Below are positions 1,920 to 37,928 of a DNA stretch of 41,524 nucleotides, piece by piece. Below the pieces are notes generated by a model that saw only the letters and a list, made by a program, of their open reading frames with translations, had not been told where the DNA came from and did not search any database. Position 1 is the first letter of the stretch, and each line of letters begins with the position of its first letter. The stretch covers positions 82,071 to 123,594 of the forward strand of contig JAFZKY010000037.1 in the NCBI GenBank assembly GCA_017551725.1, read 5' to 3'. The stretch comes from Bacteroidales bacterium (GTDB lineage: Bacteria; Bacteroidota; Bacteroidia; Bacteroidales; WCHB1-69). The position numbers and the translations under genes are program-made.

Positions 1920-3506
1920 ATGAGAAAACTATTTTCCATTGTCCTAGGATGTGCAATTGGCTTGTTTACAGCATGTTCAACAGATTCGCTCGCCTATTAT
2001 GACGACATCTACACCACATCCTCCGATGCGCAATACAGCGCACCCGCCCCCAAACAGACCAAAAGTGCCCCTGCGGAATTGCAGCCCGACTCCATCGTTT
2101 ACGAATACGACGAGAACGGGAATCTGCTGGACACCAAGACGTATTATCCCGGCCAGGCCGAACCGACCGTCACCTATTATGAGATCCCCGTGGAGGGAAG
2201 CACCACCGCCATCACCGACTATGATGACGACTGCTACGACTATTATTACACTTCCCGTCTGCGCCGTTTCCACACAAATCTTTATTGTGGATATGGCTAC
2301 TACGATCCCTATTTCACCAATTTATATTGGTATGACAGCAATCCATATAATTGGGGATTAAGCATTTACATGGGTTACAACTGGTGGTGGCCAAGCTACT
2401 ACTATCGTCCGTATTATTATGATTACGGATGGTATCATTATGGCTTCAACTACGGATGGGGCTGGCATCATCCGTATGGAGGATGGTGGGATTACGGTTA
2501 CCACTCATGGCATCATCCGCACCATTACTTTGCCGCCGACTATTGGCACAACCATCTGGATCCCAATCACTCCTACTATTATGGCCACCGCAACAGCATC
2601 GGACCTTCCGTGGGCAACCACAACCCTGACCGTGAGGACAAACCCTTCAGTCCCGGTCTCAGCGGTAACAATGACAACAACAACCACTATTCGATCACAT
2701 CATCTGCTCCCACCTTCAATCAACGCTACGACAACATCGCAGCTCAATACACCACAAGCGGTGGTGGCGGCGGTTCTTCATCAGTGACACCTTCTGCTCC
2801 AACCAGCAGACCTACAGCACCTTCCCCGACTAACAATCGTGTAGTCCCCCAGAATGTTGAGAACCCATCCAGCAGCATGACACGTCAAAACCAATCGGTG
2901 CCAACCTCCACTTCGGTCAAGCCTACCGTGAACTCTCGCACTGAAACACAAGGCACCTCCCACATTAATACAAATACATCCAAAACCCCGACTGTCATCA
3001 ACCGGACCGTTCCTTCACAATCGACAACACGTCCGGCTAACAATTCCAGTTCGACGACATATCCCAGCCGCACCAACACGGCCAGTCCTTCCAGCACCCC
3101 TCAACGCTACAACTCCACACCGTCAAGAAGCACAGCCACTCCCAGCAGCACTTCTCGTCCGGCGACCTCTCCTTCCTCCTCATCTTCCACAAGAACCAAC
3201 TACTCAAATAGTTCGCATTCCTCCTACCCTGCCACCTCACCTTCTAACTCCAGCAGTAGCCGTTCCTCTTATAGCACTCCTTCCCGCAGTTCCTATTCTG
3301 GTAGCAGTTCACCATCCAGAAGCTCCTATTCCAGTGGAAGTTCATCTTCCAGAAGTTCTTATTCCGGCAGCAGTTCTTCCTCTAGAAGTTCTTACTCGGG
3401 TGGAAGTTCCTCTCACAGTTCATATTCTGGCGGAAGCTCGTCCCACAGTTCCAGTAGCAGTTCCTCCTCGCGCAGCGGTGGCTCGTACAGTGGAGGCAGA
3501 AGATAA
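1920..3506 (+). CDS. Tyr/Trp/His-rich, Ser-rich surface lipoprotein of unknown function
   Basis: A 528-residue predicted lipoprotein: Lys/Arg n-region, hydrophobic core and lipobox ending at Cys19. Residues 20-100 are acidic and polar. Residues about 105-225 are extremely rich in Tyr, Trp, His and Gly, starting at YYYTSRLRRFH. Residues about 230-528 are a Ser/Thr/Pro/Asn-rich low-complexity tail that becomes a short tandem Ser-Tyr-Gly repeat near the end. Similar proteins with an RLRRFH motif followed by an aromatic block are common, uncharacterised lipoproteins in Bacteroidota. Function is unknown; export to the envelope and an extended or adhesive tail are inferences from composition. It has its own promoter and a strong ribosome binding site. 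The next gene follows after 26 bp. Confidence 0.85.
   Translation: MRKLFSIVLGCAIGLFTACSTDSLAYYDDIYTTSSDAQYSAPAPKQTKSAPAELQPDSIVYEYDENGNLLDTKTYYPGQAEPTVTYYEIPVEGSTTAITDYDDDCYDYYYTSRLRRFHTNLYCGYGYYDPYFTNLYWYDSNPYNWGLSIYMGYNWWWPSYYYRPYYYDYGWYHYGFNYGWGWHHPYGGWWDYGYHSWHHPHHYFAADYWHNHLDPNHSYYYGHRNSIGPSVGNHNPDREDKPFSPGLSGNNDNNNHYSITSSAPTFNQRYDNIAAQYTTSGGGGGSSSVTPSAPTSRPTAPSPTNNRVVPQNVENPSSSMTRQNQSVPTSTSVKPTVNSRTETQGTSHINTNTSKTPTVINRTVPSQSTTRPANNSSSTTYPSRTNTASPSSTPQRYNSTPSRSTATPSSTSRPATSPSSSSSTRTNYSNSSHSSYPATSPSNSSSSRSSYSTPSRSSYSGSSSPSRSSYSSGSSSSRSSYSGSSSSSRSSYSGGSSSHSSYSGGSSSHSSSSSSSSRSGGSYSGGRR
3286..3470 (+). repeat. Degenerate in-frame Ser-rich tandem repeat
   Basis: About six imperfect units of 30-33 bp encode variants of SRSSYSGSSS and SHSSYSGGSS at the C-terminus of the lipoprotein. 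Units differ mainly by synonymous Ser codons (agc, tcc, tct), so the repeat is stronger at protein than at DNA level. Confidence 0.7.
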
Positions 3507-3532
3507 ATTAACGCAGTAAAAAATCAGCAACA

Positions 3533-4987
3533 ATGAAAAAAATAATCGGCATTTTCGTTTTATTGGCCTTTGCAGCATTTTCCTTTGCTCAAGGCGATTA
3601 CGAGGCTTTCCGTTTCTCCCAGACGGAGATTTCCGGCACGGCGCGCTTCATGGGTGCAGGGGGTGCCTTCAGCACCACCGGCGGTGACTTTTCCGCACTT
3701 AGCCTCAATCCAGCCGCCATCGGCCTGTACAAGCGCCACGAGGTGACCCTCACCCCCATGTCGCTGGCATTCTCGAACAACACGTCCAAATATTACGGGA
3801 ACGGCGACTTCGCGAAGAACCCCAAATACACGGTACCCGAGTGCGGTCTGGTCATTACCAGCAACCGAGAAGGCTCCAACTGGAAAAGCTGGCAGTTCGG
3901 CTTCGGATACAACCGACTCATGGACTACAACAACGCCCTCCGTGCCAGTGCGCCTAACGTACCCAACTCCATGGTTAACACCATCTTACGCCATGCCCAA
4001 GGTACACCTTACACAGCACTTGCCGGCGATGCGGGCCTGGCTTGGAGCACCTGGCTTATTGATACCGTAGCTGGCCACAACGACCTCTACTACAGCCCCT
4101 TTGAGAGAGCCAACACAGATCAGAACGCCCTCGTGGAACAATCCGGGGCCATTGACGAAATTTCGCTCACCTTTGGAGGCAATTTCCAAGACATACTCTA
4201 TATCGGAGCCAGTTTGGGCATTCCCATCATCGACTACAAGGAAAAAATAACCTATTCTGAAGTCGTTCCTGATGCTTTGGAGTCGGGCCTGTATTTGACA
4301 TCATTCCAGACTATATCCACCCAGCACGACGCGGGCGGCGGCATCAACCTCAAATTGGGTGTGATTTACCAGCCCGTGACCTTCCTCCGTTTAGGAATCG
4401 GATTCCAAACCCCAACCTATTTCTGGAAAATCAAAGACACATATGACCGAGAGATGCTGGCCCAATACTTTGATGGAACAAATTCCAAGACCTGGTCCTA
4501 CACCAATCGCAACAACTTCACCCTCACCACGCCTTTGAAATTCAACGTGGGAGCCACGTTCCTACTCAAAAAACGGGCTTTCATCTCCGCCGAATACAAT
4601 TTCTGCCACTATGGTATGGCCAACCTTTACTCCAACGACTATAACTATATAAATGAGAATCAGGCCGTCAAGGACAAATACGGCATCTGCCACACGTTGC
4701 GCGTGGGTGCGGAAGTCAACCTTTCCTCGCATTTCGCCCTGCGTGCCGGATACAACTTCAAGAGCAGTCCTTACAAGCTCACCTCTGGCCCGTATAACGG
4801 TTCTGCTCATTACGCCTCCCTCGGACTGGGCTTCAAGTCCAAATATTTCTTCGCAGATCTGGCTTACGTGCTGAAACTCAGCAAAGACAGCTTCTGGCTG
4901 TACGAAAGCAACAACCCTGCAGTCAGCGCCGTGGAGTATGAAAACACCACCCATAGAATTGTGGCCACCATCGGCTGTAAATTCTAA
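3533..4987 (+). CDS. OmpP1/FadL-family outer membrane porin-like protein
   Basis: A 484-residue outer membrane beta-barrel with a signal peptide (residues 1-19, ending SFAQ). The N-terminus has the arrangement typical of the OmpP1/FadL/TodX family: FSQTEISGTARFMGAGGAF, then LSLNPAAIGLYKRHEVTLTP. Alternating aromatic strands fill the rest and the protein ends in a barrel-closing aromatic, IVATIGCKF. FadL-type proteins let hydrophobic compounds cross the outer membrane; the ligand here cannot be told. Bacteroidota members are sometimes annotated as hemin receptors, without evidence here. The following gene starts 6 bp after the stop, so the two are probably cotranscribed. Confidence 0.85.
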   Translation: MKKIIGIFVLLAFAAFSFAQGDYEAFRFSQTEISGTARFMGAGGAFSTTGGDFSALSLNPAAIGLYKRHEVTLTPMSLAFSNNTSKYYGNGDFAKNPKYTVPECGLVITSNREGSNWKSWQFGFGYNRLMDYNNALRASAPNVPNSMVNTILRHAQGTPYTALAGDAGLAWSTWLIDTVAGHNDLYYSPFERANTDQNALVEQSGAIDEISLTFGGNFQDILYIGASLGIPIIDYKEKITYSEVVPDALESGLYLTSFQTISTQHDAGGGINLKLGVIYQPVTFLRLGIGFQTPTYFWKIKDTYDREMLAQYFDGTNSKTWSYTNRNNFTLTTPLKFNVGATFLLKKRAFISAEYNFCHYGMANLYSNDYNYINENQAVKDKYGICHTLRVGAEVNLSSHFALRAGYNFKSSPYKLTSGPYNGSAHYASLGLGFKSKYFFADLAYVLKLSKDSFWLYESNNPAVSAVEYENTTHRIVATIGCKF

Positions 4988-7169: not shown

Positions 7170-7762
7170 TTTATTTTAGAGGTAAGAATATCAATTCCCT
7201 TTTCATTCTGGGCACCCACGGGGATGATGATATCTGCCGAGCGTTTGGACGGCTCGATGAAAAGCTCGTGCATGGGCTTGACAAAATGCTGGTAATGGAT
7301 GATGGACTTGTCCAACCCACGACCTCTCTCGTTCACGTCCCGCTGGATAATGCGTATCAGACGCTCGTCCGCATCCGTATCCACGAACACTTTCAGGTCG
7401 AGAACATCCCGGAGGGCTTTGTCGGTAAAAATCAAGATACCCTCCACAATCAGCACATCGCAGGGGTTGACAGGGATGGTATCCTTGCCGCGGGCGCAGG
7501 TGACATACGAATAGGTGGGCATTTCCACGGGAATCCCAGCTTTCAATTTGTCGATGTGGTCCACCAGCAGGGTCCACTCGATAGCCGACGGATGGTCGAA
7601 GTTGATCTTCTCCTTCTCTTCCTGGGGCAGATGGCCGTTGTCTTTGTAATATGCGTCCTGGGAAAGCACGCTGACCTGTTCTTTGGGCAGGCTTTGGATG
7701 ATTTTCTTCACCACCGATGTTTTGCCGGAGCCGGAGCCGCCGGCGATACCAATTACGAGCAT
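7148..7762 (-). CDS. udk: Uridine kinase
   Basis: A 204-residue P-loop kinase that phosphorylates uridine and cytidine to UMP and CMP in pyrimidine salvage. The Walker A motif GGSGSGKT is at residues 8-15, followed by SQDAYYKD (nucleoside-binding region), FDHPSAIEW, MPTYSYVTCAR, the Walker B-like VLIVEGIL, and the lid region RIIQRDVNERGRG. Length and motif order match bacterial Udk. It is a single-gene unit: a tRNA terminator lies just upstream and its own terminator hairpin overlaps the stop codon. Confidence 0.95.
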   Translation of the reverse strand: MLVIGIAGGSGSGKTSVVKKIIQSLPKEQVSVLSQDAYYKDNGHLPQEEKEKINFDHPSAIEWTLLVDHIDKLKAGIPVEMPTYSYVTCARGKDTIPVNPCDVLIVEGILIFTDKALRDVLDLKVFVDTDADERLIRIIQRDVNERGRGLDKSIIHYQHFVKPMHELFIEPSKRSADIIIPVGAQNEKGIDILTSKIKQTLGII

Positions 7763-7787
7763 AGTGTCTGTGTTTTAAATGCGAACG

Positions 7788-7795
7788 CAAAGATA
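7788..7795 (-). promoter_or_regulatory. -7 box for udk
   Basis: The minus strand reads TATCTTTG, an exact TAnnTTTG match, 26 bp before the udk ATG. It lies between the tRNA terminator and udk. Confidence 0.5.
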
Positions 7796-7816
7796 CTATT
7801 TTTCGGATATTGGAAT

Positions 7817-7847
7817 AAAAAAAATCACGCTTTCCGCGTGATTTTTT
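7817..7847 (-). terminator. Intrinsic terminator of tRNA-Gln
   Basis: ATCACGC pairs with GCGTGAT around the loop TTTCC (7831-7835), with flanking A and T runs extending the stem to about 12 bp. On the minus strand it ends in a run of eight T, directly downstream of the tRNA. Confidence 0.8.
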
Positions 7848-7849
7848 GT

Positions 7850-7919
7850 TGCCCCGATAGGACTCGAACCCATACAAACAGAACCAGAATCTGCTGTGCT
7901 ACCATTACACCACAGGGCA
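7850..7919 (-). tRNA. tRNA-Gln (anticodon CUG)
   Basis: A 70-nt cloverleaf on the minus strand. The acceptor TGCCCTG pairs with CGGGGCA (one G-T pair). The D arm is GTGTAATGGTAGCAC. The anticodon stem GCAGA/TCTGT encloses the loop TTCTGGT, giving anticodon CTG. The T arm is ATGGG-TTCGAGT-CCTAT. CCA is not encoded: the 3' end is followed by ACA. A CUG anticodon reads only CAG, so a second UUG tRNA-Gln should exist elsewhere in the genome. A terminator follows immediately. Confidence 0.95.
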
Positions 7920-7924
7920 AAAGT

Positions 7925-7971
7925 TTGAGCGCGCAAAGATATACTTTTTTTCATATACCCAGCGCGCTCAA
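7925..7971 (-). promoter_or_regulatory. tRNA-Gln promoter bracketed by a perfect 10-bp inverted repeat
   Basis: TTGAGCGCGC (7925-7934) and GCGCGCTCAA (7962-7971) are exact inverted copies 27 bp apart. Between them lies the minus-strand -7 box TATCTTTG (7934-7941), 15 bp upstream of the tRNA. The repeat could be an operator, or a long-loop terminator for the 7985 gene, whose stop lies 14 bp away. Which one cannot be decided from sequence. Confidence 0.5.
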
Positions 7972-7984
7972 GCATTTTTTTTTT

Positions 7985-9184
7985 CTAACTTACGAAAACC
8001 ACTTCATACCAGATATATCCGCTCACTATAACTTCCTTGTAATAAACATTATCCACTTTGTAATAGACGTATCCGTCCAAAACGATTTCTTCATAGTTAC
8101 TCGGAAGTTCGGCCACGCGGGCACCGATCGGAGGGTTCACAACCACGTAATCTTTCTGTCTCGGGGTGTAAAATGTGCCATCATCGTAGTAATAAGTCAC
8201 ATTTCTATAGACGACCACCACAGGGCTCCAAGTGCGGAAGATGGAGTGAGCTATGACAGCTCCGACAGGCGGGCGGCAGATGATATAGTATCCGTTGATG
8301 TAGCGGCAGTAAACGCTGTTGTAGAAGTAGTAGGGAACGCCGTGATAGTAAACGGGACGGATACCGTGAGGAACGTGCATGTGGTGACCAAAGGAGTGGT
8401 GGTTCGGGTGTACGTAAGGCGCAGCAAGAGGAGCGTGGTGTCCGGGTGCCGGTTTTGCGTCAGGACTGGGAGCTGCTCCCTGACCCGAAGGACGACCGCC
8501 TTCATAGCGTGAGGATGCCGGCTGAGGAGTTGCTTGACCCGTGGAAGTATAACCCCGTTTGGTCTCAGACGTGCTGGACGTAGCGGCTGCCGGCGTTGAC
8601 ACGCGAGAATCTGTGGTTCTACTACTGACGGCAGAAGATGTCGTCGGACGGCTTGTCACGGACGTGGCAGGTTTTGCCACCTCGGAAGAGGCTGGTCTAG
8701 CCGTTGTTGAAGAAGCAGGTCTTGCCGTCGTAGAAGAGGAGGCCGGGCGGGACACCGATGAAGACGTGTTCGTGCGTGCAGCACTCGGGGTCACCGTGGA
8801 GCTGCTCGTGGAAGCAGGACGGGATACTGCGGTTGACGAAGTGTTCCGAGAAGAGGCCGGTGCAACCGTTGAAGAGGAAGCCGGACGGGACACGGACGAC
8901 GGTGCGGAAGTCCTGGACGACGTACTCGAAGACGTGGCAGGCGGTCTGCTTACCGAAGTGGAAGAAGTCGGTCTCGATGTTGTCTGTGCCTTTTGGTAAC
9001 TGCTGTTGGCCTTGCTCATCTGCGCGTCACCTTTCCGGACCTGACGATCCACCGAACTGCTGACAGTGGTTGCGGGCTTGCTGCTGGGTGCAGAAGCTCT
9101 GGATACAGGCGTCTGTCCCATAACCGAAGAAACGGCCAGACTACCTATCCATAAAAGGCTGATTAACAAAACTGACTTTTTCAT
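7985..9184 (-). CDS. DUF6515-like exported protein with long Ser/Thr/Pro tract
   Basis: A 399-residue protein with a signal peptide ending near SVMGQ (residues 1-24). Residues about 25-235 are a low-complexity Ser/Thr/Pro/Arg/Ala tract. Residues about 255-399 form a folded domain: HGVPYYFYNSVYCRYINGYY, IICRPPVGAVI, VVNPPIGARVAELPSNYEE and repeated YYK segments. The GARVAELP and VYYK signature matches what I know of DUF6515, whose function is unknown. The Ser-rich tract resembles the tail of the lipoprotein at 1920, but the order is reversed, with the tract before the aromatic domain. No promoter box was seen in the 81-bp gap after the C10 protease gene, so it may be cotranscribed with it. Confidence 0.8.
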   Translation of the reverse strand: MKKSVLLISLLWIGSLAVSSVMGQTPVSRASAPSSKPATTVSSSVDRQVRKGDAQMSKANSSYQKAQTTSRPTSSTSVSRPPATSSSTSSRTSAPSSVSRPASSSTVAPASSRNTSSTAVSRPASTSSSTVTPSAARTNTSSSVSRPASSSTTARPASSTTARPASSEVAKPATSVTSRPTTSSAVSSRTTDSRVSTPAAATSSTSETKRGYTSTGQATPQPASSRYEGGRPSGQGAAPSPDAKPAPGHHAPLAAPYVHPNHHSFGHHMHVPHGIRPVYYHGVPYYFYNSVYCRYINGYYIICRPPVGAVIAHSIFRTWSPVVVVYRNVTYYYDDGTFYTPRQKDYVVVNPPIGARVAELPSNYEEIVLDGYVYYKVDNVYYKEVIVSGYIWYEVVFVS

Positions 9185-11828: not shown

Positions 11829-11919
11829 ATTTTTTTTTTAAAACAACAACATTTTTATATTTTTTATTTTCAAATAGACTAATCCGTGAATTGATGAAGA
11901 AAAGAGCGTTTTTTTTTTG

Positions 11920-11927
11920 TATTTTTG
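11920..11927 (+). promoter_or_regulatory. -7 box for the M23-phoH-lpxK-PNP unit
   Basis: TATTTTTG, an exact match to TAnnTTTG, lies 21 bp before the ATG at 11948. It places the transcript start downstream of the TTG/ATG codons near 11891, so those cannot be the start of the M23 gene. Confidence 0.55.
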
Positions 11928-11947
11928 CGCCCAATAAAAAAACGCGG

Positions 11948-12865
11948 ATGGGCAAATTTCAAAAAATTAAGAAGTTTTGGAGCGTCATTGTGAGCGAATG
12001 GAAGACTCGTTACCGGTTGGTCTTCTCGAATGAGGAGACCCATGAGCAGAGTTTTGTCATCAAGAAAATCACCATTCAGAAGATGGTGGTTTTCATCATT
12101 TTGGCATCTTTTGTCCTCATCCTGCTGACCACGGTCATCATTGCGCTCACCCCTTTGCGGATGTACATCCCGGGATATACCACCCAGAAAGATTACAAGA
12201 TTTATAAGCAGACTGTCATGAAGATGGACTCCATGGAGCGAACCATCCGCTACAACCAGGAGTATATCGACCATCTGTCCAAGATGCTTTCCGGCGACGT
12301 GCCCACCACCGACGAGATGGACCGGGACGCCCAGACCTCCCCGCAGACGCATGAAACCCGGCGCGACAAGAAGCGGATAGCGGAATCGGAGGCCATTGAA
12401 AAGGAAGCGGAACGGATATTGGGACGCATCCGGAAAGACGATGGAGGCGGCAGCGACAATGTACCCGGCATTTCCCAAGCCAAAATCACAAACCTGTCGC
12501 TATATCCGCCAGCCCTTGGCTCCGTGGTACAGGTGTTCGACGCCACCCGCAAGCATTATGGCATCGACATCCTTTCCGTGCAGAACAGCATCGTCTCCTG
12601 CATCGCCGACGGGGTGGTCGTCTATGCCGGATTCACCGCTGACGACGGCTACACCATCATCGTGCAGCATCCGGGCAACCTAGTTTCCGTATATAAGCGC
12701 AACGCGGCCCTGATGAAGAAGACAGGTGCCCGTGTGCGTGCCGGCGAAGGCATCGCCAAACTGGGCAACAGCGGCACGTCCGAAGGGAAAACCAACCACC
12801 TGCATTTCGAGCTGTGGTACAACGGTTTCCCCATCAACCCCCTCAATTATCTAACCATTGAATAA
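11948..12865 (+). CDS. M23 (LytM)-domain membrane protein, probably catalytically degenerate
   Basis: A 305-residue inner-membrane protein: a short cytoplasmic N-terminus, one membrane segment (about 46-67), a periplasmic linker with coiled-coil character (about 80-165), and a C-terminal M23 domain. The zinc ligands are present: His203 and Asp207 in HYGID, and His286 in HLHFE, together with His284. The His that normally follows Tyr in the YxH motif is Arg251 (VYKRN, codon cgc), so one of the two catalytic His is lost. Related Bacteroidota proteins, as I recall them, read VYKHN here. Degenerate LytM proteins often regulate cell-wall amidases rather than cut; that role here is inference. The start at 11948 is set by the -7 box. 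phoH begins 1 bp after the stop. Confidence 0.85.
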   Translation: MGKFQKIKKFWSVIVSEWKTRYRLVFSNEETHEQSFVIKKITIQKMVVFIILASFVLILLTTVIIALTPLRMYIPGYTTQKDYKIYKQTVMKMDSMERTIRYNQEYIDHLSKMLSGDVPTTDEMDRDAQTSPQTHETRRDKKRIAESEAIEKEAERILGRIRKDDGGGSDNVPGISQAKITNLSLYPPALGSVVQVFDATRKHYGIDILSVQNSIVSCIADGVVVYAGFTADDGYTIIVQHPGNLVSVYKRNAALMKKTGARVRAGEGIAKLGNSGTSEGKTNHLHFELWYNGFPINPLNYLTIE

Positions 12866-29998: not shown

Positions 29999-32695
29999 CT
30001 ATTGTTTCAAATAATTCTCCTTGAAAAAGTTAGCATATGCAGCTCTTTCATCCTTGTTGTTATAAAAAGTTGTGTAGTTGGTAGCCGACATGGCATACAC
30101 CTCAATGTTGCCATTAGCTATATCGCCGGCAAAATCTTCATGTTTCACCAGCACATGGTAATAATCCATCACTGCAGCCTTGTTGGCAAACTTGGCCACC
30201 GTGACCATCTGCTGGGAATTGTTGATATAGAAACTGCTCATATTGAAACGCTGCAAGCTGAACAGGAGCTTATTGAAATTTGTCAGTTTGAGTTTAACGT
30301 CCTGCACAGGCAAATTTGCGGCCTTTACCAGCAGCACCATATAGTGCATCTCATCATCCTTGACTATAAAAGAATTTTTTACAACATTGGTTTGCGGCGC
30401 TTCCGTGACCGGTGCCTCCTGTGCCTTGGTGGAATCCGTCGTGGGTGGAAGGGTGGCGGCCAACTTCTGGGCATCAAAGGTGGAGAGGTAGATGCGTGCC
30501 AACTCGGCCACCTCATACTGGCCATATTGGCTGATCACGTTCCGCAAGCCTACGATAAGCGTGTCCTCGTTATATACCTGACCGGCAGCCACGGCACGCA
30601 GATAAGCGAACTTCGACGCTAGTTCCTTATCTTGACAATTCGACAGGGTAGCATCCGTTTTCTGAACCACAACACTCCACTGCCGGTTCTGGAAAGCATC
30701 ATACACCTCCTGATACATATTCTCCGCCATCTGCTCTTGGCTGGCCAGTTTCTTGTAGTAATCCGGATCCTGGATCAGCTTGGCATAGTCAGTGTCCGGA
30801 TATTTGGTCAGCAAAATCTGCTTGTAATGTTCGTATTTGGGATCGTTCTGTTTCAGATAGATGGAGTACAACAGGAACGTACACGGCAGGGCATACTCGG
30901 ATTCGGGATAACGTTTCAAAAGGGATTCGAACGAGGCACAGGTTCGCGGAAGGTCGTTCAAAAGATCCTGATAGATAAAACCCACCTCATACAAGTCCCT
31001 GGCGATGATGGCGTTGGAGGTGTCCATTGCCCCCTGGGTGAGCGGCAGGTCCTGCAGATAATACTCTTCCTTCTTGGGGTCGGTTTCCCGTTTCTTGATG
31101 GGATTGCCATCCTCGTCATACTCCACCGTATCCTTGGCATGATTGGGATCGTTCATCACAGCCATGTCCTCGAATGAGATTTGCACCTTGTTGCTGACGA
31201 ACCAGTTGTCTTCCAGTTTCCGGTTGCCCCAACGCCGGTAGAAGTCCTGTTGGCCGGCAGTCACCAGCGACTGGTTGTAAAAATACCACTTTCCGTTGGA
31301 AGAGGTGGTGTTGATGTTGGTGTAGGACGAGGCGTTCTGCAATGCCAACATCCGTTCAGCCTCCTCGGCAGCGGCTTTGCGCTCGGCCTCGGTGTAGTCG
31401 GCAATCATCTTGCGCACCCATGCTTTGCGTTGACCTTCCGGCATCTTGGCGATGCGTTGCAAGCTGTCCTGGAGGTCAATCTCGTCCAACTTGTCCACCA
31501 AGTCTTTCAACACGTTGGCTCTTTTCAGGATATTGTCATAATCCGGATAGTTTTTGGGAATGCTCATGACCGCCGTGTCATAGTAGGCTTGCGCCATGCG
31601 GTACTCATCCTGACTGAAAAAGAAATCGGCGAGCGTGAGGCTGGAGAACGTCTTCTGATAATAATTGTTCGTGGAAGTGGATACCGACTTTTTCAAATAA
31701 TCGATACGCAACGAATCGTCCTCGTCGATGCGGGCGATTTCCGAGCAGGCATAGTATATCTGGTCCTTGAAATCCTCGTTCTTCTTTTCGTTCAACATTT
31801 TGCGGAACTGCTTCATGATGGCGTTCCGGGATGATTCGCTGCCGTCGTAGTTGGAAGCCAGGTGCATCTGGGCGCAGAAAACCTGCTCATAGATGGACGA
31901 CTTTTTGATGACCTTCATGAAATTCTTCTGAGCCTCGGCCTGTTGTCCCATCTCCTCGTACAATTGTCCCAAGATCAGGTGCAGACGGGACTTGAAATCG
32001 CGCTTCGGGTGAGCATCGATGGTGTTTTGGATGAAATCGACGGCCTCTTGCTTGTCACCGTCGGGGGCGGTAAGGTGGTACTCGGCCTTCGCCGCGTTGA
32101 ACCAGACGTTGAACTTGTGGTTTTTCTTGTTGGTGGCCAGATAGTGCAGATTCTCCAACTGCTCGTCGGCACTGGCAAAATAGCCTTGACGCATGGCCGT
32201 GCGGGCCTGCAAGACAGCAGCCTCGTTGTATGTGTTCGACTTGGGGTAATTGTGCATGATGTAGTTGAACACCCGCTGCGCCTGTGTGTAGTCCTGCTTG
32301 TAGAAATAGGCCTTGCCCATGATGAGATAGGCATCGTCGATGGTCTTCACGTACTCCTTGCCCCGGATCAGCATCGAATGCTTGTAGATGGACTTGGAGG
32401 CTTTCTCAATGGTGCGGTCCAAGTGGGGCAGCGCCGAGCCAAGGTCCGACTTGCTAGGGTAGTTGTAGATCGGCAGCCGGACTGTATAATTGTCCTTGCC
32501 CATTTTAGCCATCTCCGCCTCGGCACTTTTCATGGCCTGTTGGCCGTTCCAAAGCACATTGTACTTGTTGGTTACATTATGATAAGCCCTGTTCGGAAAC
32601 GTGTTCTTGGAGGTGGAACAGGCCGCCAACCCGACCAGCAGAGCTGCCAGCAGGCCTATTGTGAGGAGAGGAAGAATGTTATGTTTCTGTTTCAA
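29999..32695 (-). CDS. porW: T9SS periplasmic lipoprotein PorW/SprE
   Basis: An 898-residue lipoprotein with lipobox VGLAAC (Cys26). Immediately after it comes the family N-terminus STSKNTFPNRAYHNVTNKYN, then many TPR helices (for example YLIMGKAYFYKQDYTQAQRV, ADEQLENLHYLATNKK), and a C-terminal domain with YMVLLVKAANLPVQDVKLKL. PorW/SprE is an essential T9SS lipoprotein that connects the PorLM motor side to the outer-membrane ring or translocon. No ATG exists before the signal peptide in this frame; TTG at 32695 is the only start that gives the n-region KQKHN. The next genes are bactofilin and atpZ. Cargo for this system is encoded at 9.3 and 18.1 kb. Confidence 0.9.
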   Translation of the reverse strand: MKQKHNILPLLTIGLLAALLVGLAACSTSKNTFPNRAYHNVTNKYNVLWNGQQAMKSAEAEMAKMGKDNYTVRLPIYNYPSKSDLGSALPHLDRTIEKASKSIYKHSMLIRGKEYVKTIDDAYLIMGKAYFYKQDYTQAQRVFNYIMHNYPKSNTYNEAAVLQARTAMRQGYFASADEQLENLHYLATNKKNHKFNVWFNAAKAEYHLTAPDGDKQEAVDFIQNTIDAHPKRDFKSRLHLILGQLYEEMGQQAEAQKNFMKVIKKSSIYEQVFCAQMHLASNYDGSESSRNAIMKQFRKMLNEKKNEDFKDQIYYACSEIARIDEDDSLRIDYLKKSVSTSTNNYYQKTFSSLTLADFFFSQDEYRMAQAYYDTAVMSIPKNYPDYDNILKRANVLKDLVDKLDEIDLQDSLQRIAKMPEGQRKAWVRKMIADYTEAERKAAAEEAERMLALQNASSYTNINTTSSNGKWYFYNQSLVTAGQQDFYRRWGNRKLEDNWFVSNKVQISFEDMAVMNDPNHAKDTVEYDEDGNPIKKRETDPKKEEYYLQDLPLTQGAMDTSNAIIARDLYEVGFIYQDLLNDLPRTCASFESLLKRYPESEYALPCTFLLYSIYLKQNDPKYEHYKQILLTKYPDTDYAKLIQDPDYYKKLASQEQMAENMYQEVYDAFQNRQWSVVVQKTDATLSNCQDKELASKFAYLRAVAAGQVYNEDTLIVGLRNVISQYGQYEVAELARIYLSTFDAQKLAATLPPTTDSTKAQEAPVTEAPQTNVVKNSFIVKDDEMHYMVLLVKAANLPVQDVKLKLTNFNKLLFSLQRFNMSSFYINNSQQMVTVAKFANKAAVMDYYHVLVKHEDFAGDIANGNIEVYAMSATNYTTFYNNKDERAAYANFFKENYLKQ

Positions 32696-34050: not shown

Positions 34051-34095
34051 GTGCAGAAACCGCTTGCAGAGATATTGCGTCCCTGGACTTTGTAA
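34051..34095 (+). pseudogene. rarA: Detached 5' end of rarA, ended by an in-frame TAA
   Basis: From GTG 34051 the frame reads VQKPLAEILRPWTL, then TAA at 34093-34095, then SYIGQEHL running directly into the main RarA reading frame. Intact RarA proteins have PLAERLRPKTLDEYIGQEHL here, so the stop replaces one acidic residue, and two further conserved positions (R to I, K to W) are altered. The region is collinear with no length change, so it is a nonsense substitution rather than a frameshift. It might still act as a 14-codon upstream ORF before reinitiation at 34120. Confidence 0.75.
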
Positions 34096-34119
34096 AGCTA
34101 CATCGGGCAGGAGCACCTG

Positions 34120-36330
34120 ATGGGGCCGGGTGCCGTATTGCGCACGGCCATCGAGAACGACAATATCCAGTCCATGATCTTCTGGGGCCCGCCGGGCGTG
34201 GGCAAGACCACGCTGGCCCTCCTCATCGCCGAGCTCACCGGCTCCGACTTCTACATGCTCAGCGCCATCAGCAGCGGAGTGAAGGACATCCGCGAGGTGA
34301 TCGACAAGGCTCGGAAATCGGAACATAGGAGCTTACTCTTCATCGATGAAATCCACCGTTTCTCCAAGGCGCAGCAAGACTCTCTGCTCGGGGCCGTGGA
34401 ACAGGGCGTGGTCACCCTCATCGGGGCCACCACAGAGAACCCCTCCTTCGAGGTCATCTCCCCTTTGCTGTCGCGCTGCCAAGTCTATGTGCTGAAAAGC
34501 CTGAGCCGGCAGAATCTGGAGACCATCCTGCAAACCGCCATCAGCTATCTGGAGAATCATTTCCAATGCAAGATACAGCTGGAGGACACGGAAGCCCTCC
34601 TCCGCATCTCGGGCGGCGACGCGCGTAAGCTTATCAACGCTGTGGAATTAGTCACCTGGATGACCAAACCCGTTGACGGCGTCATCACCATTACCCGCCA
34701 GCAGGTCATCCACGTCATACAGCAGAATTTGGCCATGTACGACAAAAACGGGGAGCAGCATTACGACATCATCTCGGCGTTCATCAAGTCGATGCGGGGC
34801 AGCGATCCCAACGCGGCGGTCTATTGGATGGCCCGCATGTTGGTGGCCGGCGAGGACCCGCTCTTCATCGCCCGCCGCATGGTGATCCTGGCCTCCGAAG
34901 ACATCGGCAACGCCAACCCCAACGCCCTGTTGCTGGCCAACAACTGCTTCCAGGCAGTGAACGTAATCGGGATGCCGGAGGCGCGTATTCCATTGACACA
35001 GACGGCCGTATATCTGGCCTCCTCGCCCAAGAGCAATGCCGCCGTGGTCGCCATCGACAACGCCTACGCCCTCATCAAGCAGACCGGCGACCTGCCTGTG
35101 CCGCTGCACATCCGCAACGCGCCCACCAACCTGATGAAGGAGTTGGGCTATCACAAAGGCTACCAGTATGCCCATGATTTCGAGAACAACTTCGTGAACC
35201 AGGAGTTCATGCCCGACCCTATCCGCGGAACGAAGCTGTACGAACCGCAGAACAACCCTCGGGAAAACGAGTTGCGCAAATATCTGCGGAATTGCTGGAA
35301 AGAGAAATACCACTACATCCTCGTGCTGTTTCTGGCACTCACCCTCTTCTTCCGCATGGGACATGCCCAAGACTACCATTTCTCGCAGTTTTACAGTCAG
35401 CCCATCACATTGAATCCCTCCTTGACCGGCGCCTTCGACGGCGTATTCCGGGCCACTGTCACGGAGCGCACCCAGTGGCTGTCGGTCACCAAGCCCTTCC
35501 TCACCATCGGGGCGGGCATAGACGGGGCCATCCTCAAGGACAACCGACGGCAGCAACTGCTGGGCATCGGGGCAGCATTCACCGCCGACAAGGCCGGCGA
35601 TTTGCATTACACATCCCTGCAGGCTCTTGCATCGGTTTCCTACATCAAATACATCGGACGGCGCAGCCGCCACAAGATCGGCCTCGGGGCATACGCCGGC
35701 CTGATCAACAACTCCTACGATATCCTTTGGGCCATGTGGGGTTCCCAGTACCGGGATGGCCAATATAATCCGGATTTGCCCGGTGGAGAGGTTATTCCGC
35801 TGAGCCGCCAGCTTTTTTTTGACTGCGGGGCGGGGCTCTTCTGGAGCTACACGCCCAATAAGACCAACACCTTCCAGCTAGGGGCCGCCGCCGCCCACCT
35901 CAACCGTCCGTTCGATGATTTCGGAACACTCTCCTCCCGTCTGCCTATACGTTACACGGCCCACTTCCTGTCGCGCATCAGCCTCACCCGCGAGGTCTCC
36001 ATAGAACCTCTTCTGTATGGTTCTTGGCAACGGAATTTCAGCGAATATCTCTTCGGGGCCAATGTCGAGTATTTCCAGCGACAGAACAGCTACAAGACAC
36101 TGTTTTCCTTTGGCGGCGGACTCTTTTACCGATGGAACGACGCCATCGTGGTGGATTTCTTCTTCGACTGGCAGAATCTGCGCTTGGGTGCCAGCTACGA
36201 CCTCAACGTGTCGCGATTCATCCGGGCCACCAAGATACGCGGTGGATTTGAGGTCACGTTGTCTTATGTTTTCCGGAAAAAAAGTATCACACGATTAGGC
36301 AAAGAGCCTTGTCCTTTTGATGTTATGTGA
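34120..36330 (+). CDS. rarA: RarA (N-terminally truncated) fused in frame to PorP/SprF
   Basis: One 736-residue frame holds two unrelated proteins. Residues 1-399 are RarA/MgsA, the AAA+ ATPase that acts at stalled replication forks: Walker A GPPGVGKT (23-30), Walker B LLFIDEIHRF, GATTENPSFE (sensor 1), LLSRC, ISGGDARKLIN (sensor 2), and the C-terminal half ending RNCWKEKYHY, a normal RarA end. About 24 N-terminal residues are cut off by an upstream stop. Residues 400-736 are a PorP/SprF outer membrane protein, beginning directly with a signal-peptide core. No stop codon and no ATG separate the parts before Met413. An expressed fusion would place a secretion signal inside a cytoplasmic ATPase, so either PorP starts internally (GTG 35323) or the locus is decayed. 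An assembly error cannot be excluded. Confidence 0.85.
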   Translation: MGPGAVLRTAIENDNIQSMIFWGPPGVGKTTLALLIAELTGSDFYMLSAISSGVKDIREVIDKARKSEHRSLLFIDEIHRFSKAQQDSLLGAVEQGVVTLIGATTENPSFEVISPLLSRCQVYVLKSLSRQNLETILQTAISYLENHFQCKIQLEDTEALLRISGGDARKLINAVELVTWMTKPVDGVITITRQQVIHVIQQNLAMYDKNGEQHYDIISAFIKSMRGSDPNAAVYWMARMLVAGEDPLFIARRMVILASEDIGNANPNALLLANNCFQAVNVIGMPEARIPLTQTAVYLASSPKSNAAVVAIDNAYALIKQTGDLPVPLHIRNAPTNLMKELGYHKGYQYAHDFENNFVNQEFMPDPIRGTKLYEPQNNPRENELRKYLRNCWKEKYHYILVLFLALTLFFRMGHAQDYHFSQFYSQPITLNPSLTGAFDGVFRATVTERTQWLSVTKPFLTIGAGIDGAILKDNRRQQLLGIGAAFTADKAGDLHYTSLQALASVSYIKYIGRRSRHKIGLGAYAGLINNSYDILWAMWGSQYRDGQYNPDLPGGEVIPLSRQLFFDCGAGLFWSYTPNKTNTFQLGAAAAHLNRPFDDFGTLSSRLPIRYTAHFLSRISLTREVSIEPLLYGSWQRNFSEYLFGANVEYFQRQNSYKTLFSFGGGLFYRWNDAIVVDFFFDWQNLRLGASYDLNVSRFIRATKIRGGFEVTLSYVFRKKSITRLGKEPCPFDVM
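35317..36330 (+). other. PorP/SprF-family T9SS outer membrane protein segment
   Basis: The last 337 residues of the fused frame. They begin with the hydrophobic stretch ILVLFLALTLFFRMGHAQ, which looks like a signal peptide whose positive n-region would be the RarA tail (KEKYHY). The mature part QDYHFSQFYSQPITLNPSLTG is the PorP/SprF signature, and barrel strands continue to LSYVFRKKS. Full-length PorP/SprF proteins are about this size. PorP/SprF proteins bind at the outer membrane as T9SS or SprB-type surface partners. A candidate internal start is GTG at 35323; the only downstream in-frame ATG near the junction (35356) falls at the signal cleavage site. The PD40/OmpA gene follows 2 bp after the stop, its usual partner type. 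Confidence 0.85.
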
Positions 36331-36332
36331 TT

Positions 36333-37928
36333 ATGAGAAAGGCTCTGGCGTTCATATTATTCATCATCATCTGCGGGGTTTTGCCGGCCCAGGTGCGGTT
36401 GTCGGACCGCCAGCGGGACGAGCAGATCCGGTTTATCCGGAATGACACGCTCCCCGTGACCGTAAACGCCCTTCCTTCAAGCGTAAACTCCCGTTTTTCG
36501 GAATATTCGCCCGTGCTGCTGCCGGACTCCTCGTTCCTGTTCACCTCCATGCGTGCCGACCGCGAGGAGGATGCCGACCGCTATTTTGAGACCAGCTGGT
36601 ATTGCAACATTTACCGTTCGCAGCTACTCTCCGATGGAAACTATGAGCCAGCCGTGGCCCTGCCCTCCAGTATCAACAGCCGGCGCACCTTCAACAGCAA
36701 TTTCTGCTGGAATGTCGCCCAGAACGAGCTGATCTACTCGCGCTGTCTGCGCGACAATACGAACGAGCTGCGCTGTTCGCTATGGCGCACCGTCCGCAAC
36801 AGCCGGGGCTGGAGCACACCGCAGAAGCTGCCCACCGCCATCAACGCCGAAGCCTCCACCAACATGCAGCCCTGCCTCGTGACCTTGCCCGACTACGACG
36901 TGCTCTACTTCGTTTCCAACCGCAAGAACGGATTCGGCGGCCTTGACATTTGGTATTCCATCCGCAAAAACGGCAAATTCGATGTCCCTATCAATGCGGG
37001 TCCTCTCATCAACACTGAAGGCAACGAGATTACACCTTTTTACGATTCTGATAAGAAAATCCTCTATTTCAGCTCCGACGAGCACCTCGGCATCGGCGAT
37101 TACGACATCTTCTACGCGGAGGGGGCTTTGAGCCAATGGGGGGATGTCGCCAATATGGGCGTGCCGTTCAATTCGCCCTACAACGACTTCTACTTCCATC
37201 CGCTTTCAGACGGGGAGAGCGGCTATTTCTCCTCCAACCGTCCGCACGACGACCTCCAGCCGGAGGACACCTGCTGCAACGACATCTTCCACTTCCAAAA
37301 ACATTATCCGAAAGATACCATGGCCAAGCCAGCCGACACAATCACCTTCCGCGAGAAAATCGCCTCTGTGTTGCCCATCACCCTTTATTTCCAAAACGAC
37401 CAGCCCGACCCCAAAACGATCTCCGATACCACCAAGACGGATTATCCAGCCCTTTACAACCGATACGTGGCCGACATGCAGCATCATATAGCGCAGTCCA
37501 TCAGCGGATTGGATGACGACAGTATGCACCTTGTACGGCAGATGATGATCCGCTTCATGCGCGATTCGGTCGCTGCCGGCTATGGTCGTCTCCTGACCTT
37601 CACCCGTTACCTGAAAGAGGCCCTGGCGGCGGGCGACTCCGTGGGCATCCTCATCAGCGGGTACGCCTCGCCCCTGCACAATCCGGCATACAACCGCCAT
37701 CTCTCCGCGCGCCGAATCGTCAGCCTGGTCAACTATCTGCGCACGGCGGAAGGGGGCTTCTTCCGGCCTTATCTGGATGGCAGCCGCAGGGGACTCACCC
37801 TCCGCACCGACCCGCAGGGAGCTGTGGGGCCGGCCTTCACCACCGACGACACCCGCGAGACCGTTTACGGCATCCAGGCGGCCAAGGAGAGGAAAATTGT
37901 TGTCACCATCCTCTACGACCAGCCCTAA
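36333..37928 (+). CDS. PD40-repeat/OmpA-like protein (PorE-like T9SS partner)
   Basis: A 531-residue exported protein with a signal peptide ending GVLPAQ. Residues about 50-310 are PD40/WD40-like propeller blades: EYSPVLLPDSSFLFTSMRAD, QPCLVTLPDYDVLYFVSNRK, NGFGGLDIWYSIRKNGKF, NEITPFYDSDKKILYFSSDE, GIGDYDIFYAE and SGYFSSNRP. Residues about 340-530 form an OmpA-like domain starting ITLYFQNDQPDP and ending with GYASPLHNPAYNRHLSARRI, the peptidoglycan-binding pattern. The pairing with a PorP/SprF gene is common in Bacteroidota, where such proteins link the outer membrane T9SS part to the cell wall. The ATG at 36333 is preferred to a GTG two codons earlier inside the preceding stop. Confidence 0.85.
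   Translation: MRKALAFILFIIICGVLPAQVRLSDRQRDEQIRFIRNDTLPVTVNALPSSVNSRFSEYSPVLLPDSSFLFTSMRADREEDADRYFETSWYCNIYRSQLLSDGNYEPAVALPSSINSRRTFNSNFCWNVAQNELIYSRCLRDNTNELRCSLWRTVRNSRGWSTPQKLPTAINAEASTNMQPCLVTLPDYDVLYFVSNRKNGFGGLDIWYSIRKNGKFDVPINAGPLINTEGNEITPFYDSDKKILYFSSDEHLGIGDYDIFYAEGALSQWGDVANMGVPFNSPYNDFYFHPLSDGESGYFSSNRPHDDLQPEDTCCNDIFHFQKHYPKDTMAKPADTITFREKIASVLPITLYFQNDQPDPKTISDTTKTDYPALYNRYVADMQHHIAQSISGLDDDSMHLVRQMMIRFMRDSVAAGYGRLLTFTRYLKEALAAGDSVGILISGYASPLHNPAYNRHLSARRIVSLVNYLRTAEGGFFRPYLDGSRRGLTLRTDPQGAVGPAFTTDDTRETVYGIQAAKERKIVVTILYDQP

Follow-up and report, generated by a model that had tools for sequence, protein, structure and literature searches.

The window analysed here is a 41,524-nucleotide stretch of contig JAFZKY010000037.1 (positions 82,071 to 123,594, forward strand) of a Bacteroidales bacterium (GTDB lineage Bacteroidales; WCHB1-69; assembly GCA_017551725.1), a metagenome-assembled genome (MAG) that is 81.5% complete. 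On the forward strand of the window, a single stop-free frame at 34120-36330, which counts 736 codons and 744 codons from stop to stop, joins rarA, the gene for a cytoplasmic fork-repair ATPase, to porP, the gene for a predicted outer-membrane protein of the type IX secretion system (T9SS). The frame is divided as follows.

34120-35316, forward strand: RarA (MgsA) part of the fusion, amino acids (aa) 1-399, ending in CWKEKYHY; assigned by Pfam domains and the match to E. coli MgsA
35317-35367, forward strand: predicted internal signal-peptide core of 17 codons (ILVLFLALTLFFRMGHA); assigned by the T9SS_PorP_fam match from aa 400 and the junction comparison of 59 fusions
35368-36327, forward strand: mature PorP/SprF barrel, starting at a conserved glutamine (Q) as the predicted signal peptidase I product; assigned by PF11751 and modelled strands

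The Pfam domains AAA, AAA_assoc_2 (PF16193) and MgsA_C (PF12002) follow each other in this order within aa 19-392, the E. coli MgsA structure 3pvs_A matches the RarA part at 2.7e-100, and this part stops where the unfused RarA of the window's genus (g1) has KYxY and a stop codon. PorP_SprF (PF11751) covers aa 416-716 at 1.2e-31 (110.7 bits against a cut-off of 22.3), and the NCBIfam model T9SS_PorP_fam (TIGR03519) reaches 134.4 bits against a cut-off of 90.55, with an alignment that begins at aa 400, the first residue past the KYHY of RarA. Neither a stop codon nor an ATG lies between the end of RarA (35316) and ATG 35356, and the signal-peptide core of the PorP half is internal, with RarA directly before it and no N-terminal signal peptide of its own. 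An earlier note on this DNA had described RarA running without a stop into the core of a signal peptide and then a complete PorP/SprF barrel, and the frame and both sets of models bear this out. In an AlphaFold2 model of the fusion both folds are recognisable, the RarA half resembling E. coli MgsA and the PorP half carrying strands at 443-718; a sequence search of the Protein Data Bank for PorP (A1 profile, E <= 0.01) gave no match. The fusion is the sole full-length RarA match in its genome.

The fused junction is widespread in the family of the window. A junction profile (A2), built from 14 fused sequences and 228 positions long, was run over the 104 genomes of the family and found a stop-free match across the junction in 59 of them, distributed over 9 of the 17 genera; 58 of these genomes match all 228 positions, and G007, at a contig edge, matches from position 12. 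Fused genomes occur in g1 (26 of 40), g26 (2 of 2), g28 (1 of 1), g29 (5 of 5), g31 (1 of 1), g34 (9 of 9), g35 (2 of 2), g38 (11 of 13) and g40 (2 of 3), with none in g27, g30, g32, g33, g36, g37, g39 and g41. Six of the 104 genomes gave no match with the profile, four of them in fused genera, and all 33 genomes with a match in the fused genera other than g1 are fused. Four genomes without a match to the junction motif (G066, G078, G079 and G116) were scored as unfused by the ends of their open reading frames (ORFs). In an order-wide sample of 393 genomes with families up to f120, a full-length match was obtained in three, all from the window's family; at most seven candidates were scored per genome, and matches outside those listed lay below about 166 bits, against 351 bits for the weakest fused match of the family. 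When the window's fusion served as the query, an uninterrupted match over the whole or nearly the whole protein came from 21 of 35 genomes of the same genus, and one more was found at a contig edge. A search of named records gave 80 loci, 33 with the fusion, including one at a contig edge. The named MAGs stem from several projects and hosts, and where the title tells, the carriers are uncultured Bacteroidales of the rumen, other stomach compartments, the caecum or horse faeces; some of their loci are only 71-77% (RarA) and 38-47% (PorP) identical to the window. A junction shared by 59 of 104 genomes is more than chance. The earlier note had supposed a deletion in this genome and, if relatives should share it, a new gene arrangement; the conservation proved real and the deletion peculiar to one genome is not supported. 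The window is one of 59 fused cases, and the three closest relatives by RarA (G018, G019 and G029; 95%) have separate rarA and porP genes.

In all 59 fused genomes RarA closes with its usual W..KYxY, and the distance from KYxY to Q is 16 residues in 32 fusions, 17 in 21 and 19 in six. Q stands at the predicted cleavage position in 59 of 59 fusions by a motif search that itself begins with Q, and its column is also invariant in motif-free alignments (14/14 in A2 and 31/31 in A3); the junction and Q each occupy one alignment column in all 56 fusions aligned. The residue before the predicted cut (P1) is A in 45 fusions, G in 10, S in three and T in one. Throughout the 59 fusions the last 12 residues of RarA have a net charge of +2 to +4 and none of the first 10 residues past the junction is charged, while the best 10-residue hydropathy of the junction stretch is 2.4-3.5, compared with at most 2.33 anywhere in the RarA part. 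Unfused RarA ends are equally basic (net +1 to +5 in 28 rows), and this end was therefore suited beforehand to the role of an n-region. In the Bacteroidetes "Q-rule" for signal peptidase I sites, as given in excerpts of two papers, Q is usually exposed after cleavage (PMC5837995; PMC10653852). Judged by sequence, the junction stretch of all 59 fusions resembles a signal peptide, with n-, h- and c-region and such a Q-rule site. The expectation that the fusion could not be exported normally is thus not supported, as the basic n-region, the hydrophobic core and Q are kept in every fusion and export is predicted.

Both halves appear to be constrained. The ratio of nonsynonymous to synonymous substitution rates (dN/dS) was taken for 17 hand-chosen pairs, with the partial sequences of G007, G076 and G086 left out. 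It lies at 0.00-0.08 in the RarA part, where 16 of the 17 pairs are unsaturated, and at 0.04-0.11 in the PorP part, where 13 are, which indicates purifying selection on both. The fused copy is the only gene containing MgsA_C in all eight fused genomes tested. With the low dN/dS of both halves, this makes it most likely that both are working genes.

We therefore regard the fused gene as probably encoding a RarA-PorP preprotein that carries its signal peptide internally and is cleaved by signal peptidase I. According to this model, rarA and a porP paralogue other than that of the porPKLMN cluster would have merged into one gene in the ancestor of a large part of the family, and the gene would be translated as a single preprotein, the RarA portion of which would fold in the cytoplasm. 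The basic C-terminus of RarA would act as the n-region, and the internal signal would engage the Sec translocon with the N-terminus inside. Signal peptidase I would cleave ahead of Q, and PorP would then insert in the outer membrane with a PD40/OmpA-like partner. RarA would be left with a hydrophobic-core tail of 16-19 residues, which would probably keep it at the inner membrane. For the window's genus, the model adds slippage at a poly-T tract of the signal peptide, which would end translation after RarA and so also release RarA without PorP. The wider proposition, that a fork ATPase stands ahead of a T9SS protein in a polyprotein, that export leaves RarA tethered to the inner membrane and that poly-T slippage in one genus sets how much RarA is made alone and how much together with PorP, so linking the repair of forks with the biogenesis of the envelope, is put forward only tentatively.

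Several observations weigh against the preprotein. Thirteen of the 39 g1 genomes with a match to the junction profile, including the three closest relatives, are without an intact fusion, which is therefore dispensable, and the window's own rarA carries a premature TAA. The signal-peptide stretch of 16-19 codons evolves faster than its flanks (dN/dS 0.39, 0.61 and 0.67 in three pairs), and its n-, h- and c-region were scored by simple measures of charge, hydropathy and motif. The AlphaFold2 model is of medium quality, with a predicted local distance difference test score (pLDDT) of 69.6 and a predicted template modelling score (pTM) of 0.41, and its junction, with pLDDT below 50, was given no weight. 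Furthermore, 45 of the 59 fused genomes have some ATG, GTG or TTG within 30 codons before the junction (-30) that would give a signal peptide of at least 16 residues, one or both of the first two codons after KYxY are GTG or ATG in 18 of the 26 fusions from g1, and starts such as ATC or CTG could lie anywhere.

The history of the fusion was followed in quick trees, the support of which is the approximate likelihood ratio test SH-aLRT only. The RarA tree has 100 rows, of which 77 make up one group (SH-aLRT 99) that unites the fused genomes with the unfused ones nested in their midst; the fused label needs seven changes, against 31 for shuffled labels. In the genera outside this group rarA and porP are separate; in g36, where a single contig carries both genes, a distance of 7-10 kb and a change of strand separate rarA from porP and its PD40/OmpA partner. 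The simplest reading of these sequences would be one ancient fusion with later splits. The rival, that rarA and porP were fused repeatedly and independently, draws on the seven label changes in the RarA tree and on the same number in the PorP tree, on the absence of early unfused copies outside the fused ones in the PorP tree, the deep part of which is weak and long-branched and disagrees with the RarA tree, and on the signal-peptide core FALLxxLC, which unfused g1 copies on separate branches of the RarA tree have in common. It has to reconcile these with a junction whose alignment column does not differ between the fusions compared, and with the placement of unfused genes: leaving G006 aside, porP lies downstream of rarA and in the same orientation in 11 of 12 unfused g1 genomes, as would be expected from a split, unlike the distant and inverted porP of the earlier-branching g36. 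The porP genes of G013 and G020 are sisters (100) and their rarA genes are not (that of G020 is partial); the split allele may therefore have moved between species by recombination, or the fusion may have recurred. On balance, we regard repeated fusion as rather unlikely. Between the split rarA and porP genes lie a RelE/Gp49 toxin-like gene paired with a helix-turn-helix (HTH) gene in one relative (L035, 6497-7106) and a RhuM-like gene in another (L070, 5477-6601). In the g41 genomes G123-G127, RarA is unfused, no junction-type PorP match was obtained at E <= 1e-20 and two or three other PorP genes are present; g41 has probably lost the fusion-type PorP paralogue.

In g1, the stretch encoding the signal peptide contains a run of eight to ten T (T8-T10) in 22 of the 26 fused genomes, with T10 in 18. 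Fused g1 genes generally prefer TTC despite this tract. At its columns +10 and +11, which are Phe in all 26, TTT makes up 48 of 52 codons, whereas 14 further columns of these genes that are Phe throughout use it in 93 of 356; in other genes of the same loci FFF is encoded as TTTTTTTTT in 3 of 42 cases. A search of two genomes for T10 runs gave few of them: with overlapping matches counted strand by strand, 16 + 19 in G011 and 32 + 20 in G021. The use of TTT at the tract goes beyond codon need and suggests that the tract is selected at the nucleotide level. An intrinsic terminator at this place was ruled out by the lack of a consistent hairpin in the 40 bases upstream of 25 sequences: relative to simple shuffles, the hairpin z was below -2 in three of them and within 1 of zero in 18. 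Among the 18 T10 genomes, adding a T brings a stop by codon 12 past the junction in 17, and removing a T brings one by codon 13 in all 18.

Such a tract may allow both programmed slippage and phase variation. In the latter case, the poly-T of the g1 signal peptide would be a hypermutable DNA switch that turns PorP on and off, with RarA always made. The conservation of the tract beyond codon need and the early stops on either side of T10 would suit such a switch, as would G006 (L062, near 8000), which has T11 where its near relatives have T10, so that the frame is broken ahead of a porP without further stops. G006 could as well be an assembly error, and all 18 T10 genomes, with one genome per species, are in frame. 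In four T8-T9 genomes of g1 a slip reaches a stop only after 15-42 codons, and no such tract is present in the signal peptide of the window, of three further fused g1 genomes or of 31 of the 33 fused genomes of other genera. We therefore hold phase variation to be a rather doubtful explanation, and since the tract is missing in the window and in most fused genomes of other genera, it is to be seen as an addition to the proposed preprotein and not as its core mechanism. A further tract lies in the PorP half of the window.

35813-35820, forward strand: T8 tract in the PorP half (L/F-F-F-D), with T8-T9 at the same place in several genera

This second tract recurs in some genomes of g1, g29 and g38 and in all nine of g34. 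In the control genes, some 115,000 codons in all, T10 runs occur in just two ORFs, both of them in the window, at 7285-8509 and 11893-12862.

Another way to make PorP would be internal initiation, by which the fused frame is a gene overlap and the exported PorP starts near the junction, at the GTG or ATG after KYxY or at a TTG in the ENEL motif of RarA, with or without coupling to the translation of rarA. A candidate start of this kind had been proposed in the earlier note.

35323-35325, forward strand: in-frame GTG, not conserved

GTG 35323 was ruled out as a conserved PorP start because the codon is not conserved among relatives. The general case can call on the start codons counted above for g1 and for the 59 fusions, and on the ENEL TTG at -15, which is present in 24 of 59. 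It can also call on a RarA cluster of 104 genes from 52 genera that is marked TC in an excerpt of the GeneTack study (PMC3711429), which we take to mean translational coupling. Against these stands the fact that no start codon is conserved across the fused genomes: three of the 59 (G067, G084 and G106) have no ATG, GTG or TTG from 30 codons before the junction to Q, 14 have none within -30 from which a signal peptide of at least 16 residues would result, and 30 have no ATG from -60 to Q. A start just past KYxY would moreover yield a signal peptide without a basic n-region, and the 12 unfused g1 copies compared have a different stretch upstream of the hydrophobic core. As three fused genomes are without any of the three codons from -30 to Q, internal initiation is probably not the general route. 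Internal starts may contribute in some genomes, and judged from these codons they cannot be the shared mechanism unless starts outside ATG, GTG and TTG are used. Overall, we find it improbable that PorP is made in this way instead of from the preprotein.

An artefact of assembly or binning, or a gene decaying in this genome only, is barely conceivable, for although the window comes from an incomplete MAG and its rarA has a premature stop codon, 59 genomes, spread over 9 genera and obtained in several projects, have the identical junction, with purifying selection on both halves; this excludes an assembly artefact and refutes the explanation in general, while the TAA alone could be an error or a real mutation. 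This codon lies in a segment ahead of the fused frame.

34051-34119, forward strand: 5' end of rarA, with GTG 34051 where relatives start, interrupted by TAA 34093-34095

The rarA frame of the window extends upstream to GTG 34051 (VQKPLAEILRPWTL) and is broken by the in-frame TAA, at the site of which all 28 relatives compared (L013 not among them) have a sense codon, mostly for E or D, as in the reading LRPRTLESYIGQEHL. The TAA thus cuts off the first 23 codons of rarA, and ATG 34120 is the first start past the stop. The 34120-36330 ORF of the earlier note therefore stands as an open frame, but 34120 does not stand as the natural start of RarA. As the sequence reads, the N-terminus of RarA is incomplete in the window, and the TAA is either a real truncation with a restart at ATG 34120 or a consensus error of the MAG.

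The neighbourhood of the fusion contains further genes with a T9SS connection.

36333-37928, forward strand: PD40/OmpA-like gene (PF07676, 4.9e-11), with its ATG 2 bases past the PorP stop
29999-32695, reverse strand: porW/sprE (NF052312, 628.9 bits against a cut-off of 250), a neighbouring T9SS gene

The PD40/OmpA-like gene also follows porP in several genomes with an unfused porP. Compared with the PorE model NF052230, it scores 140.5 bits, below the cut-off of 600, and covers only profile positions 154-405 of 648. In available excerpts of one paper, PorP binds PorE in P. gingivalis, and in F. johnsoniae the porP-like and porE-like genes are grouped (PMC9143113). The fused PorP resembles its family in passing the cut-offs of PF11751 and TIGR03519 and in having a PD40/OmpA-like gene directly downstream; unlike other members, it would be made behind RarA, and in the window it has no signal peptide or ATG of its own. 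The genome of the window has two further PorP genes, one of which (L209) precedes genes matching PorK, PorL, PorM and PorN above their cut-offs. T9SS genes thus exist elsewhere in this genome, and the fused PorP, as a paralogue, does not belong to the porPKLMN cluster. In a split relative (L035), the gene at 3409-4716, upstream of rarA, encodes a T9SS C-terminal sorting domain (PF18962).

The arrangement can be compared with several known systems. The cytochrome b/c1 polyprotein FbcH of Bradyrhizobium is encoded by one gene and gives two envelope products by cleavage of an internal signal sequence by signal peptidase. The principle is the one proposed here, but both parts of FbcH belong to one respiratory complex and the first is a membrane protein, whereas here a cytoplasmic DNA-repair ATPase comes first. 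PRK13341, presumably a RarA fused to an unknown domain with a cyanobacterial range (models NF009880-83), is likewise a RarA with a C-terminal extension and of similar total length; in the window only aa 1-397 match, all four models stay far below their cut-offs, and the extension of PRK13341 is not PorP. With the RarA/MgsA proteins of E. coli (3pvs) and B. subtilis, the fusion shares the domains in order, the usual C-terminus, purifying selection and the place of sole RarA (in eight fused genomes), and differs from them in bearing a hydrophobic stretch and an outer-membrane protein at the C-terminal side. According to excerpts of a B. subtilis study, a RarA-YFP is functional, so RarA can tolerate a fused partner, and RarA is mostly found on the nucleoid, unlike membrane proteins (PMC6374455). 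Slippage at a poly-A tract gives two products from the Thermus dnaX gene, as described in part of PMC1088944. There too a homopolymer tract lies in a clamp-loader-like AAA+ gene and a frame change leads to an early stop, while the tract described here is poly-T, lies within a signal peptide and mainly in one genus, and its slippage is putative. In open-access papers on RarA with PorP, on RarA fusions or RarA at the membrane and on PorP/SprF fusions, no report of a RarA-PorP fusion was found. The fusion itself is thus unreported in the literature searched, and the polyprotein principle has its precedent in the cytochrome b/c1 precursor.

As there is no signal peptide at the N-terminus of the protein, gene callers and signal-peptide predictors may miss this fused PorP. 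If the proposed preprotein is real, a cytoplasmic DNA-repair ATPase and an outer-membrane protein would be made as one precursor that has been kept in at least nine genera. The C-terminus of a soluble enzyme could then act as the n-region of a signal peptide, and signal peptidase I could serve as a polyprotein protease. RarA would be placed at the membrane, and the biogenesis of the T9SS would gain an unexpected tie to replication.

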